From positions 1-43,686 of the IMG/VR virus record IMGVR_UViG_3300045926_000300: a DNA stretch of 43,686 nt. One strand, written 5' to 3'. The notes below the pieces were generated by a model. The model was not told where the DNA came from, made no database searches, and saw only the letters and a program-made list of their open reading frames with translations. Both the position numbers and the translations under genes were made by a program. Position 1 is the stretch's first letter. Every line of letters begins with the position of its first letter. The stretch is from a virus. This document shows, in pieces, positions 7,263 through 38,794 of the stretch.

Positions 7263-7693
7263 GGTCTGCCTCCCCTGATCTGATAGGTCACGCTCTGTCT
7301 CATCTCCCCGGTATCGATCAACGGCTTGGAGGAACCCTTGGCCCTGATCGTCGCCGGAGCATTCGGAGGATGCCTCAGGACGGTGATCTCGTGCTGGATG
7401 TCTCCCACGGCCATGGTGCCCAGCTGGCGAAGAGCCCTTTCCGTGGTCTCCTTTTGCTCAACGATCTGCTTGGCCCTGGCGGCCATCAGGGCGGCATACT
7501 TTCTCCGGCCGTTCCTCATCGCCCTCCGAAAGAACGGGCGCTCGGGGATCCGTCTCGTGCCGAACTCGTTCCAGATCGCCTTGCTAATCACGAAGTCGGT
7601 GGTCCTCCCTCGAGGGAAGCCAACGACGACCTGAAGGGGAGCCGCCGGGACCTTTGGCTTCATCCTGGTCTTGCGGATCACCCTGATCGTCAT
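7259..7693 (-). CDS. Neck protein, HK97 gp10 / virion morphogenesis-like
   Basis: A basic protein of 144 residues. It carries 'IPERPFFRRAMRNGRRKY' in the middle and 'KPLIDTGEMRQSVTYQIRG' at the end. The 'PFFR.A' and 'LIDTG.mr.SvtY' pair is the signature of HK97 gp10-like and related neck proteins. A 12-bp CTCGAG-centred palindrome (7606-7617) lies within its 5' part and encodes part of 'GFPRGRT'. It sits between the adaptor and the stopper genes. Confidence 0.78.
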   Translation of the reverse strand: MTIRVIRKTRMKPKVPAAPLQVVVGFPRGRTTDFVISKAIWNEFGTRRIPERPFFRRAMRNGRRKYAALMAARAKQIVEQKETTERALRQLGTMAVGDIQHEITVLRHPPNAPATIRAKGSSKPLIDTGEMRQSVTYQIRGGRP

Positions 7694-18410: not shown

Positions 18411-18590
18411 CTGATCTTGCTCGACTTTAACCGGTGTTGGGGAAAGATACTCCAGACCCCCCGATGAGGGAAGGGAGAGAAATGACAGAATGCCCATTGC
18501 CGGGGAGAGGAGGCCTCGCCAGGGCCCGAGGAGGGTTCCCCAGGCCTCTCCCTACCCCTGGACCGGTCCCTGCGGCTGGCGGTCCTCCTT

Positions 18591-18850
18591 TCTAGACCGT
18601 ACTAGACTGACTTGTACCGAGCGTAGACAGCGCTTTTCCCTTTAAAATCAACGAGTTGACCTCACTAGACCGTTAGACCGGGGTGTGCGCACATTCTTAT
18701 ATAGGAGATATAAGAGGGTCCTTTTGATCAATTTTGCGTTCTTATCTCTCTCTCTCTTCTTTTTAATTTTAATCGGTCTAGTCAGTCTAGTTAGTCTAAA
18801 GACAATGATTTCAATCGTTTAATAAGGGACCGTAGCGGTCTACGTCGGTC
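18591..18850. repeat. Inward-facing TAGAC / GTCTA repeat array
   Basis: TAGAC occurs at 18593, 18603, 18624, 18666 and 18674, three of them as TAGACCG. The reverse form GTCTA occurs at 18776, 18785, 18794 and 18838, the first three at exact 9-base spacing. The two groups face each other across an AT-rich core of about 95 bases. This resembles iterons or a multi-site operator. It lies next to the SF3-type helicase gene, whose relatives bind origins. Confidence 0.65.
18696..18714. promoter_or_regulatory. Inverted repeat CTTATAT-AGGAG-ATATAAG
   Basis: A perfect 7-bp inverted repeat with a 5-base spacer in the centre of the TAGAC array. Its arms overlap TATA-like sequence that could serve as a -10 element. 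It has the size of a dimeric repressor operator. It may control the leftward late operon or the origin. Confidence 0.5.
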
Positions 18851-18881
18851 TCCTCCTCGAGAAGGGAAGTCGAGAAACCAT

Positions 18882-22078: not shown

Positions 22079-22909
22079 ATGGCGAAAGCACCAGCAAAGG
22101 GCAAGCCCGCGCCCGCAAAGAACGTCGTGGCCCTCAAGTCCCAGGACCAGGTTCCGGACTACGTCCGGCGACAGACCACCCAGGGCAGGGGCGTCTCAAC
22201 CGCGGCGGAGGACAACCTCGTACCGATGATCGCGGTCCTCCAGCCCCTCTCCCCTCAGCTCAACAAGCAGAACCAGGGCAAGTACATCGAGGACGCCGAG
22301 CCCGGCTCCATCCTGGTCAGGGGCATGGACCCGGAGGTCGTCGACGAGGTGATCTTCCAGCACTGCCACTTCTCCAAGTCCATCGTGGAGTGGGTGCCCA
22401 GAAGTAAGGGAGGGGGCTTCGTCGGTAGGCACCTGACCTGGCCCAAGGACGTGACCACCGGGAAGTCCGACGATGGGCGGAGGACGATCATGACCACCAA
22501 GGAGGGCAACCACCTGGTCGAGACCCGGTACCACGTCGGCCACGTCATCACCCCGGAGGGGTTGATGCTCCCCTACATCATCCCCTTCTCGAGCACCGGG
22601 CACACCGTCTCCCGGGGCTGGATGAACATGATGAATGCGGTCAGGCTCGAGGGAGGAATAATCCCCGATGCCTGGACCCGGCTCTATAGGCTGACCACCG
22701 TTCAGAGGACCAATGCCGCTGGCGTCTGGTACGTCCTTAACCCCCAGCCGGCCGGATGGGCAACGGCGGACCAGGCCCTGAAGGGCGAGCAGCTCTTCGA
22801 GGATTTTGAGAAGGGCGCCAAGCAGTACGGGGAGGAGGAGGACACCGGCCTCGATCCGGGGCAGCAGGGCCTCGACGAGAGGAAGGACAAGGGCAAGGGC
22901 AAGTTCTAA
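22079..22909 (+). CDS. Conserved early phage protein, possible ssDNA-binding role
   Basis: The start at 22079 (MAKAPAKGKPAPAKNVVALK) is chosen over an in-frame ATG at 22025 that lies inside the previous gene. The 276-residue protein has a basic N-terminus, then 'EDNLVPMIAVLQPLSPQLNK', 'CHFSKSIVEWVPRSKGGGFV', 'GLMLPYIIPFSSTGHTVSRG' and 'TRLYRLTTVQRTNAAGVWYV', and an acidic C-terminus. Acidic tails after an OB-like domain are typical of ssDNA-binding proteins; similar phage genes lie by nucleases and primases. The family could not be named with certainty. Confidence 0.68.
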   Translation: MAKAPAKGKPAPAKNVVALKSQDQVPDYVRRQTTQGRGVSTAAEDNLVPMIAVLQPLSPQLNKQNQGKYIEDAEPGSILVRGMDPEVVDEVIFQHCHFSKSIVEWVPRSKGGGFVGRHLTWPKDVTTGKSDDGRRTIMTTKEGNHLVETRYHVGHVITPEGLMLPYIIPFSSTGHTVSRGWMNMMNAVRLEGGIIPDAWTRLYRLTTVQRTNAAGVWYVLNPQPAGWATADQALKGEQLFEDFEKGAKQYGEEEDTGLDPGQQGLDERKDKGKGKF

Positions 22910-22911
22910 AT

Positions 22912-23030
22912 ACCGCCTGGACGTTCCTTCCCGCAGCCGCCGGCGTCAACGGGCGAGCGTGAGGTCCCCGGAGCATGCTCTCGGGGGCCAAGGCGCTACA
23001 AGGGAGAGTTCTGGTCCGTGTCCAGGCGGT
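22912..23030 (+). ncRNA. Candidate structured RNA (119 nt) closed by an 11-bp stem
   Basis: ACCGCCTGGAC (22912-22922) pairs perfectly with GTCCAGGCGGT (23020-23030). Inside, GGTCCCCGGAG (22963-22973) pairs with CTC-T-CGGGGGCC (22978-22989) around a CATG loop, with one bulge and one G-U. That hairpin is itself enclosed by AGCG (22956) and CGCT (22994). CCCG/CGGG (22930, 22950) may form another arm. No ORF fits. It lies 62 bases before the oxidoreductase start, so it could be a leader element or a free RNA. Fold is by hand only. Confidence 0.5.
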
Positions 23031-23092
23031 CGGGCATTTCGTCCACCAGTGAAACTCTTCAAGGCGCCGATCTAGAAACGAAAGGAAGAGAA

Positions 23093-24025
23093 GTGACGAT
23101 CAAGATCATAGGGGCAGGGATGGCCGGCCTCATCGCGGCCAACCTCCTCCGCCGCCACGACCCAGTGATCCTGGAGGAGCAGCAGAGCCTGCCGAATAAC
23201 CACTCGGCGGTGCTGAGGTTCCGCTCCTCCGTGGTCGGAGACGCGCTCGGCATAGAGTTCAAGAAGGTCCTGCTGCTCAAGGACGTGGAGAGCACCGGAA
23301 ACATAGTTCGAGACGCCCACCTCTACTCCTGGAAAGTGGGAGGAATTTTCAGGAGCGACCGCTCGGTGACCAGAGGCACCGAGATAGCGGAGAGGTGGAT
23401 CGCTCCGCCCGACCTCATAGAGCGGATGGCTCATGGACTGGACATCCGCTTTGGGGAACGGTGGAGCTGGAGGGAGGGGGACGGCAGGGTCATCTCGACC
23501 ATACCGATGCCAGTGATGATGGACCTGACCGGGTATCCGAGCAAGCCTCGGTTCGAGTCGAGGGTCGGGTACAACATCATCGGCCGGGTGGACAGAGCCG
23601 AGTCGTACTCCTCCCTCCTCGTGCCAGATCCGGTTCACGCCTTCTCCCGGATCTCGGTCACCGGAAGAGAGATGATCATCGAGGTTCCCAACTTGGCTGA
23701 GGAGCCTGACGAGGAGGAGGTCATCGACATGGTAGAGGACGCCTGCAACCTCGTTGGCCTCCCCTCCGCGAGCTTCGACCTGAATGCAGTCAAGCGGCAG
23801 GACTACGCCAAGATCATGCCCATCGACGAGAGGGAGCGGCAGACCTTCCTCCACTGGCTCAACGGGATCAAGGGGATTGCCTATTCCCTGGGGAGGTTTG
23901 CCTGCTGGCGCCCGGGGCTGATGAACGACGACCTGATCAAGGACGTCCGGACCATAGAGAAGTGGATGAGGCAGGGAGAGGCCGCGGGCTTCGAGCAGGA
24001 CCTCCAGAGAGCGAGGAAGTCATGA
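23093..24025 (+). CDS. FAD-dependent oxidoreductase
   Basis: I chose the GTG at 23093 since AAAGGAAGAG lies just upstream and the Rossmann fold begins at once: VTIKIIGAGMAGLIAANLLR, with G-x-G-x-x-G at residues 7-12 and an acid near the end of strand two (PVILEEQQ). The protein has 310 residues. 'HAFSRISVTGREMIIEVPN' and a final 'GIAYSLGRFACWRPGLMNDD' resemble the C-terminal FAD-contacting part of flavoprotein reductases. The substrate is unknown. It is the first of a nucleotide-metabolism gene group with a flavin-dependent thymidylate synthase. Confidence 0.75.
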   Translation: MTIKIIGAGMAGLIAANLLRRHDPVILEEQQSLPNNHSAVLRFRSSVVGDALGIEFKKVLLLKDVESTGNIVRDAHLYSWKVGGIFRSDRSVTRGTEIAERWIAPPDLIERMAHGLDIRFGERWSWREGDGRVISTIPMPVMMDLTGYPSKPRFESRVGYNIIGRVDRAESYSSLLVPDPVHAFSRISVTGREMIIEVPNLAEEPDEEEVIDMVEDACNLVGLPSASFDLNAVKRQDYAKIMPIDERERQTFLHWLNGIKGIAYSLGRFACWRPGLMNDDLIKDVRTIEKWMRQGEAAGFEQDLQRARKS

Positions 24026-24397: not shown

Positions 24398-24993
24398 TCA
24401 AGGTAACCGCGGTCAGGGAGCGCAAGAGGCCGGCCAAGGGGGGTAGGACCCCCGGGAAGGCCAAGGCTGCGGCTGGCGAGGCCTCCTCTCCCCGGCACGT
24501 GCCCGAGCTCTCGGTCAGGGAGGAGAGGGGACAGGACAATCTGAGGCTGGACGACATCCCCGTCGGCGTGGTCACCGCTAGCGGGGCAGACCAGTCCGTC
24601 TTCTGGGTCTGGAAGGGGTACCGCACCGGCAACTCCCCCTCGAGGGAGGAGGCGATCGAGCGAGCCATGGGCGCGGCCTGGTCCCTGGTCGAGTGGTGCA
24701 AGAGGCAGTGGGCCTGGAGCGACGACACGTTCGGCCCTGGCCTAAAGAGAACCAACGGGATCATCGACCACATCAAGAAGGAGCTAGTCGAGGTAGAGAG
24801 GGACCCCAACGACCTCGAGGAGTGGGTCGATGTCATGATCCTGGCCATGGACGGCTTTCGTCGGCACGGGGGAACGCCCCGGATGCTGATCGAGGCCCTC
24901 GACAGAAAGCAGATCAAGAATTTCGCCAGAAAGTGGCCTGACTGGCGGAAGGTTGGCGATGTTGCCATCGAACACGATAGGTCACGGGAGTAA
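24394..24993 (+). CDS. dATP/dGTP pyrophosphohydrolase-like protein (DUF550 / MazG fold)
   Basis: Starts at the ATG at 24394 (MIKVTAVRERKRPAKGGRTP), which overlaps the previous stop. The first 50 residues are basic and low-complexity. Residues 55-95 (GVVTASGADQSVFWVWKGYR) are a separate N-terminal part. The C-terminal half is the DUF550 domain: 'WSDDTFGPGLKRTNGIIDHI', 'KKELVEVERDPNDLEEWVDV', then 'ALDRKQIKNFARKWPDW'. The E-x-x-E and E-x-x-D metal ligands are visible. Such enzymes hydrolyse dATP/dGTP to monophosphates. In Z-genome phages a similar enzyme is MazZ, but the partner PurZ is not seen here. Confidence 0.82.
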   Translation: MIKVTAVRERKRPAKGGRTPGKAKAAAGEASSPRHVPELSVREERGQDNLRLDDIPVGVVTASGADQSVFWVWKGYRTGNSPSREEAIERAMGAAWSLVEWCKRQWAWSDDTFGPGLKRTNGIIDHIKKELVEVERDPNDLEEWVDVMILAMDGFRRHGGTPRMLIEALDRKQIKNFARKWPDWRKVGDVAIEHDRSRE

Positions 24994-35721: not shown

Positions 35722-35994
35722 ATGAGCAGAACCATCCTGGCCCGCGCGGCCCTCCCCTCGAAGAGGGGGAACCAAGAGGCCGACATCATCCTGGTCGCCC
35801 TCGATCACAACGAGGTCACCCCCTACGTGACCTGGCAGCACAACCTCGAGGACGAGTCGACGTACTGGGGCCACTACCACGCCACGTACTCCGAGGCCCT
35901 GACAGAGTTCCACGAACGCTGCCGGAGAAAGGGAGCCTTCGTATACGAGAGCGCCCACGTCTGCGTGGCTCGTCCATCCTTTGAGGAAGCATGA
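35722..35994 (+). CDS. Hypothetical protein (90 aa)
   Basis: ATG at 35722 follows AAGGAACGAAACGA. The product (MSRTILARAALPSKRGNQEA) has 'ADIILVALDHNEVTPYVTWQ', 'YWGHYHATYSEALTEFHERC' and ends VYESAHVCVARPSFEEA. Similar small proteins recur in phages ('fvtW......t.yWG.Yf......A...f..R'). Function unknown. A near-palindrome (CTCCCCTCGAAGAGGGG) lies in its first codons. Confidence 0.62.
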   Translation: MSRTILARAALPSKRGNQEADIILVALDHNEVTPYVTWQHNLEDESTYWGHYHATYSEALTEFHERCRRKGAFVYESAHVCVARPSFEEA

Positions 35995-36000
35995 AGCGAA

Positions 36001-36057
36001 ACCTCCCTCGAGGGAGGTCACCCGTGACCATGGCTGGCCGGGTCTGATGAGCAAGCC
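36001..36057 (+). repeat. Bipartite hairpin element, copy A
   Basis: A perfect 18-bp palindrome ACCTCCCTCGAGGGAGGT (36001-36018) is followed by a second stem, ACCCG/CGGGT (36020-36043), and then CTGATGAGCAAGCC. The same order (CTCGAG palindrome, second hairpin, CTGA-rich tail, AAAGGAAC leader) occurs in copies B and C. It lies between a stop and the exported protease gene. Confidence 0.65.
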
Positions 36058-36078
36058 CAACCCTAAAGGAACTAACAA

Positions 36079-37425: not shown

Positions 37426-37434
37426 AAAAGTGAA

Positions 37435-37490
37435 ACCTCCCCTCGAGGGGAGGTAGTCGCGGGGTGGTGCCCGCGGCCTGAAGATCAGCC
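37435..37490 (+). repeat. Bipartite hairpin element, copy B
   Basis: A perfect 20-bp palindrome with CTCGAG core (37435-37454) is followed by CGCGGG-GTGGTG-CCCGCG (37458-37475) and CCTGAAGATCAGCC. The loop GTGGTG is identical to copy C. It lies between the stop of the exported protein and the AAAGGAAAGGAAC leader of the next gene. Confidence 0.68.
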
Positions 37491-37509
37491 AAAAGGAAAG
37501 GAACCCAAA

Positions 37510-38538: not shown

Positions 38539-38711
38539 TGATCCCGATCTGGAGGACCAAGGACGGTAGGCTCATCCCGGTCAACCAGATGAGCGAGTCG
38601 CACCTCCGCAACTCCATCAACCTCATCCTCCGATCTGGTGGCCGGTGGAGGGGGGATCAACTGAATGGCCTCCTGATCGAACTCGAGATCAGGAGGATCA
38701 CCGGACGATGA
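38535..38711 (+). CDS. Small conserved phage protein (58 aa)
   Basis: ATG at 38535 overlaps the previous stop. The sequence MMIPIWRTKDGRLIPVNQMS continues ESHLRNSINLILRSGGRW and LNGLLIELEIRRI. 'W.tkdGr.ipv.qM...HL.n.i..l' recurs in small phage proteins of unknown role. It is followed by hairpin element copy C. Confidence 0.68.
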   Translation: MMIPIWRTKDGRLIPVNQMSESHLRNSINLILRSGGRWRGDQLNGLLIELEIRRITGR

Positions 38712-38716
38712 GCGAA

Positions 38717-38773
38717 ACCTCCCCTCGAGGGGAGGTCGTCACGACGTGGTGGTCGTGACCTGAATGAGCAGCC
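38717..38773 (+). repeat. Bipartite hairpin element, copy C
   Basis: A perfect 20-bp palindrome (38717-38736) identical to that of copy B is followed by GTCACGAC-GTGGTG-GTCGTGAC (38738-38759) and CTGAATGAGCAGCC. Stem 2 differs in sequence from copy B but keeps pairing and the same loop, as expected for a structure under selection. Confidence 0.68.
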
Positions 38774-38794
38774 AACACCGAAGGAGCATACGGA

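Follow-up and report, generated by a model that had tools for sequence, protein, structure and literature searches.

A candidate pseudoknotted RNA family in an IMG/VR phage record and phages of Caulobacter

Described RNA classes and the locus

A pseudoknot with invariant unpaired bases is characteristic of RNAs with a catalytic or binding role, and in HDV-like ribozymes the elements follow the order P1, P2, P3 hairpin, P1′, P4 hairpin, P2′. The element that we describe here lies in a gap of a 43,686-base IMG/VR phage record, the whole of which is called the window below. It shares with HDV-like ribozymes a two-helix pseudoknot with extra hairpins, but its P2 and P3 hairpins precede the second helix, the 5′ arm of that helix (P4/P5) lies immediately upstream of the 3′ arm of P1 or within a few nucleotides of it, and there is no Rfam match. 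With type II hammerheads (RF02276) it has in common an intergenic position ahead of start codons and the build of a junction RNA with a conserved unpaired core, whereas the CUGANGA/GAAA core is missing and the topology is that of an A-B-A′-B′ pseudoknot. Visual comparison led us to reject both HDV-like and hammerhead-like readings. As in riboswitch aptamers, unpaired bases are strongly conserved within a covarying scaffold and the downstream platform is variable, but the element has neither a common downstream gene class nor a match to an Rfam riboswitch.

A search of Rfam 15, proposed in the sequence-only reading that singled out this gap, returned no family matching the element: with E-values up to 10, the window gap gave only a chance match to mir-761, outside the element, RF02276 had no match in 22910-23092, and the L037 locus, which includes another copy of the element, matched nothing. 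ARAGORN found no tRNA or tmRNA in the element. A term search of the text of the phiCbK genome paper (PMC3556154) showed that it does not speak of small RNA, ncRNA or riboswitch. As none of the 4227 Rfam families match, the RNA family appears to be new; the literature check covered open-licence papers, so an uncurated description is possible.

In the window, the structural half lies leftward and the replication half rightward. The gap separates a Pam3-gp34-like gene from a Rossmann-type (FAD-type) oxidoreductase gene (Table 1), downstream of which come a dATP/dGTP pyrophosphohydrolase gene and a ThyX gene, and relatives preserve part of the order gp33-gp34-oxidoreductase-ThyX. Two further features of the window were recorded. 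The segments 18498-18522 and 24473-24497 form a perfect 25-bp inverted repeat, with one arm in the region before a small-terminase-like gene and the other where the dATP pyrophosphohydrolase gene begins. An AT-rich stretch between the divergent halves (18640-18870) holds repeated CTAGAC/GTCTAG-like motifs and is possibly an origin or regulator region.

Table 1. Coordinates of the element and of neighbouring or related features in the window
Feature	Position	Strand	Sequence, partner or basis
Pam3-gp34-like gene	22082-22909		Pfam PF23977; upstream of gap 22910-23092
P1 5′ arm, closing stem	22912-22922	+	ACCGCCTGGAC; both partners change in 7/7 aligned pairs (7 sequences)
Core box 1	22930-22934	+	CCCGC; CCYGC in 6/7 sequences (alignments A14/A16)
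P2 region, variable hairpin insert	22935-22955	+	minimum-energy helix 22938-22941/22952-22955; 3′ end conserved GGGC (22951-22954), invariant in A16
P3 5′ arm	22956-22959	+	AGCG; partner 22994-22997; one compensatory change, in L037 (AGUG/CACU)
P3 distal part	22960-22993	+	extended bulged hairpin (22963-22989) in the window
P3 3′ arm and single strand (core box 2)	22994-23003	+	CGCU, then ACAAGG
P4 5′ arm (pseudoknot)	23004-23010	+	GAGAGUU; partner 23053-23059, 7/7
P5 5′ arm (pseudoknot, on top of P4)	23011-23014	+	CUGG; partner 23046-23049
P1 3′ arm	23020-23030	+	GTCCAGGCGGT; sequence, covariation
P6 small hairpin	23032-23044	+	GGGC-AUUUC-GUCC; minimum-energy fold; between P1 3′ and P5 3′ arms
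P5 3′ arm	23046-23049	+	CCAG; 4/4 P5 pairs covary
YGA bulge	23050-23052	+	UGA in the window; UGA or CGA in all members
P4 3′ arm	23053-23059	+	AACUCUU; pairs with 23004-23010
3′ box, end of conserved RNA	23060-23063	+	CAAG; CAAG, CAAA or UAAG in all members
Shine-Dalgarno-like site of next gene (GTG at 23093)	23081-23088	+	AAAGGAAG; sequence; outside the conserved RNA
Rossmann-type (FAD-type) oxidoreductase gene	23093-24025		phrog_4828, NAD_binding_8 weak; downstream of gap
Type II hammerhead ribozymes	35994-36061, 37428-37494, 38710-38777	+	44.6-60.8 bits

Structure and conservation of the element

The features first noticed are present: the 11-bp closing stem is perfect over 97 enclosed nucleotides, and G22923-U23019 can extend it to 12 pairs, while the AGCG/CGCT closure encloses the bulged hairpin. 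The claim that stem and hairpin together lie far beyond chance was too strong, as their strength in the single sequence is moderate and the decisive support is comparative. The minimum free energy is −62.3 kcal/mol (z about −3; 0 of 200 shuffles fold as well), and an inverted repeat of at least 11 bp is present in 0.5% of shuffled gaps. By z, the fold ranks 26 among 1091 plus-strand windows, about 15 of 2906 windows on either strand have a stronger absolute fold energy, and 11-bp repeats within 150 nucleotides occur elsewhere in the window in 14 overlapping instances. In a 500-nucleotide context other pairings compete and minimum-energy folding does not favour P1, with programs that cannot represent pseudoknots. 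The gap had also been described as free of open reading frames; it can in fact be read without a stop in the frame of each neighbouring gene, but none of its frames is coding-like (best frame −0.35 bits per codon, against 0.51 for coding sequence and 0.15 for its 5th percentile). The absence of a T-run was borne out, in that no intrinsic terminator (a GC hairpin followed by a T-run) and no sigma-70-like site were found in the window gap.

Relatives of the element were not found by BLAST of the gap against phages, which gave no useful homology, nor by single-protein scans, none of which was useful, and a scan of genome contigs gave only one distant protein relative. An alignment-based scan with the oxidoreductase produced 80 related phage contigs. 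R3, a covariance model with the window element as its sole input sequence, matched L249:889-1027 (27.2 bits, E 2.3e-5 for that record) and L236:1501-1591 (E 0.046) in 77 related whole records, and L037:1338-1422 (18.8 bits, E 0.18) in a set of loci amounting to 627 kb. The latter two matches are weak by E-value; both loci were recognised by the unpaired core that they share, CAACGGGCRAGYG followed by CRCUACAAGG. As an exact pattern, this core turned up in just two contigs, those of L037 and L026/L236, among 99 related records. The L236 element and core, used as BLAST queries, led to Caulobacter phages, of which 26 records were matched by a 34-nucleotide core query and several were read in detail; members include phiCbK, Magneto, Karma, BL57, CcrBL10 and CcrRogue. 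The site is an unannotated gap in BL57, CcrBL10, CcrRogue and phiCbK (JX163858), and is covered by an annotated short hypothetical ORF in Magneto and Karma. Among plasmids, the L236 element had no match. BLAST matches in XacN1 (L241), LR745208 (L246), a bajarodmic virus (L248) and HMSP1-Susan (L247) were not counted, because the full set of pairs was absent in the descriptor scan, and two more contig copies of the window element add no evidence because they are identical to it. The members represent only about five independent lineages, of which three besides the window are metagenomic.

Inside P1, all members, the window included, share the unpaired core CCYGC ... GGGCRAGYG ... CRCUACAAGR, the last part of which comprises the 3′ arm of P3 and core box 2. 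The arms of P1 are unrelated in sequence between lineages, yet they pair in all of them (ACCGCCUGGAC/GUCCAGGCGGU, AAGGGUGGGA/UCCCACCCUU, ACCUAAGCAAGC/GCUUGCUUAGGU, ACCUGCCACGGG/CCUGUGGCGGGU, GACCGCC/GGCGGUC and CGACCACC/GGUGGUCG); taken singly, the P1 stems of the Caulobacter phages are not significant (P 0.03-0.07). The distal part of P3 is a 7-nucleotide loop, for example UUCAAGG, in most homologs, and a hairpin at the position of P6 can be read directly in the sequences of other members. In L037 and BL57 this UUCAAGG loop, closed by an AGYG/CRCU stem, is similar to the T-loop of tRNAs and could dock within the RNA.

We also observed a second long-range helix that the sequence-only reading had missed, in which 23004-23014 pairs with 23046-23059, 3′ of P1. 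The 7 nucleotides immediately after ACAAGR are complementary to the 7 between YGA and CAAG (P4), and the 4 nucleotides after the P4 5′ arm pair with the 4 before YGA (P5), so that P1 and P4/P5 make up an A-B-A′-B′ pseudoknot with a YGA bulge. The P4 arms read GAGAGUU/AACUCUU, UGAGAUU/AAUCUCA, UUUGGUU/AACCAAA, CCAGGUU/AACCUAG (6 of 7 pairs), UCGAACU/AGUUCGA, UCAGACU/AGUCUGA and CCAGACU/AGUCUGG, and P5 varies likewise. A partner for P4 somewhere downstream is often available by chance in a single sequence; the evidential strength of P4/P5 as read from these sequences lies in its fixed register across them, which was not picked to maximise pairing because conserved bases fix it. Nested folding of the Magneto element gives P4/P5 with a three-base bulge and a 14-bp terminator hairpin.

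In a trimmed alignment of seven sequences (A16, which like A14 is a construct with variable interiors cut out), 99.4% of 154 pair cells hold standard pairs, and 18 of 22 pairs show changes in both partners (P1 7/7, P3 1/4, P4 6/7, P5 4/4). The covariation score is 0.952, compared with 0.282 ± 0.043 for shuffled alignments and at most 0.158 for slid partners, for which 29-38% of cells are paired. A descriptor of the core and P4/P5, applied to both strands of 3.2 Mb, recovered the known members and one weaker site with 6+3 pairs (L063/L082), and its reversed-anchor control returned 0 matches over the same sequence. Homologs without compensatory changes had been named beforehand as the outcome that would speak against a structured RNA; the covariation check came out in the structure's favour, with compensatory changes in P1, P4 and P5, and the proposal of a structured RNA is strongly supported by comparison. 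We are highly confident, on this comparative sequence evidence, that the conserved-RNA part of our explanation is right. The hairpin first seen is, as the alignment indicates, one half of a knotted RNA of about 150 bases. With the second helix and the conserved flanks included, the conserved RNA of the window spans about 22912-23063, and the 3′ end originally placed at 23030 was about 33 nucleotides short.

Gene context and other RNAs of these phages

The genes upstream of the members differ, and a gene class shared downstream was looked for among the members and not found. In both the window and L249 the element begins 2 nucleotides past a stop codon, and in L236 it overlaps one. It is followed by a Shine-Dalgarno site and the oxidoreductase gene in the window, by a Shine-Dalgarno site and an ORF without identification in L236, and by an intrinsic terminator in L249, where the next ORF is likewise without identification. 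In the Caulobacter members an intrinsic terminator follows the element, and a DUF1643 gene lies downstream in Magneto, phiCbK, Rogue and BL64. The L037 element lies between gp33 and gp34 and does not adjoin an oxidoreductase gene. A cis-leader linked to flavin or nucleotide metabolism, as first suggested, is thus unsupported, since the window is the only member with a FAD-type oxidoreductase next downstream; a riboswitch of a flavin gene is unlikely, given the differing neighbours and the intrinsic terminator that closes some members. The other early suggestion, an independent phage RNA, fits this variety of neighbours better.

Another uncatalogued RNA, a three-way junction that we term R1/R2, immediately follows the stop codon of gp34 in at least 12 related phages (L028:91-155, L035:2831-2906, L045:2895-2957, L047:1037-1102, L048:2867-2936 and L070:2918-2982; also in L030, L032, L033, L061, L063, L073 and L147), apparently as a single copy per genome. 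It has a P1 of GUGGU/AGCCAC, a CGYAAGU (or GGUAACC) linker and a short P3, and does not match Rfam. Its pairs covary (93.8% paired; covariation 0.723 vs 0.244 shuffled) in an alignment, A9, that was trimmed of the P2 interior and includes some members selected by eye. A structural descriptor of this RNA was found in 10 of 71 post-gp34 regions vs 10 of 3000 control regions, and a scan of IMG/VR with the R1 pattern gave mostly chance matches in coding sequence. The R1/R2 RNA occupies the same gap as the window element, directly after gp34, but has another core and no pseudoknot was seen in it. Membership of the window element was rejected: the gap scores no better than background and lacks the required combination of a GGU/GCC P1, an NGYAA[GC] linker and a short P3. 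A forced alternative fold of the R1/R2 type is only 2.6 kcal/mol worse. In relatives without the three-way junction, long perfect hairpins without a T-run stand directly after gp34 (L079:2190-2230 and L039:2696-2768).

Each of the three type II hammerheads of the window ends about 15-18 nucleotides before a likely start codon, and their activity may differ, since the second reads CUGAAGA and the third CUGAAUGAG, which includes an additional A. Such hammerheads occur in 6 of 29 related phage records (G014, G030-G034); G014, the contig of L030, holds eight copies within about 5 kb, an array reminiscent of the triple hammerhead array in a phage-like region of A. tumefaciens (PMC3088659). At 7604, 10610, 33996 and 39537 of the window, on gene boundaries or close to them, stand palindromic hairpins centred on CTCGAG, which resemble the stem III hairpin of hammerheads and are without the hammerhead core.

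Possible roles of the RNA

From these observations, we propose that the gap between the two genes encodes a member of an uncatalogued phage RNA family. Comparison of the members shows that P1 encloses two arms, a variable P2 and a short P3, before the single strand ACAAGR; the 11 nucleotides after it reach across the 3′ arm of P1 and pair downstream as P4 and P5, with the YGA bulge between them, and the fold ends in CAAG. The RNA would be transcribed with the phage operon and would act as a self-contained folded module with a protein or small molecule as its ligand, or as a processed trans-acting RNA. A leader role specific to the oxidoreductase gene is improbable, since members retain fold and core despite changes in their neighbours and in the element downstream (terminator or ribosome site). 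For the explanation as a whole, a conserved pseudoknotted RNA that works through its own fold as a module independent of location, we judge the prospects, as far as comparison of sequences can tell, to be evenly balanced.

The same pseudoknot could instead be the aptamer of a cis-regulatory, riboswitch-like RNA, joined to a platform that is a terminator in the Caulobacter phages and a ribosome site in the window, which we regard as possible though rather unlikely. The high conservation of the single-stranded core and bulge, as in aptamers, and the intrinsic terminator or Shine-Dalgarno site just downstream would suit such an RNA, as would the fact that the window gap has two nested folds of nearly equal energy (−76.4 and −76.2 kcal/mol), which use either P1 or P4/P5. 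The simplest view of these folds, however, is that each represents one half of a single pseudoknot, and a genetic switch between them was dropped on the ground that the second helix is the conserved pseudoknot; the Shine-Dalgarno region of the window is largely paired in the ensemble anyway, the downstream genes vary (FAD oxidoreductase, DUF1643, ORFs without identification) and the L037 copy sits between gp33 and gp34. A self-cleaving ribozyme of an unfamiliar class, processing polycistronic phage mRNA as the hammerheads may do elsewhere in the genome, is less probable still. It would be in keeping with a compact pseudoknot with invariant unpaired bases, with the start of three members near an upstream stop codon (2 nucleotides after it, or overlapping it) and with the type II hammerheads upstream of start codons, three in the window and up to eight in related phages, but no Rfam ribozyme matches, no conserved candidate cleavage site was identified, and members with a terminator directly downstream are unlike intercistronic cutters.

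Simpler accounts fare worse. Strong intergenic hairpins are common in these genomes, so that the gap might hold an RNase III-type processing site, an mRNA stabiliser or a generic hairpin without a specific fold; we consider this very improbable, as it predicts neither the conserved single-stranded core, nor the YGA bulge, nor the covarying pseudoknot. A chance inverted repeat in a GC-rich gap, in line with the other 11-bp repeats of the window and the fold rank given above, is hardly credible, being refuted by the homologs with compensatory changes in P1, P4 and P5.

Large, well-covarying RNA classes absent from Rfam are uncommon. We lean towards the view that the element represents a functionally new class of pseudoknotted RNA in phages, whether a ribozyme or an RNA that binds a protein or metabolite during infection, which occurs in unrelated small and jumbo phages and would have been present but unnoticed in the classical phage phiCbK. 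Because phiCbK and relatives that carry the element infect Caulobacter crescentus, its transcript, its structure and its effect on infection could be measured at once.
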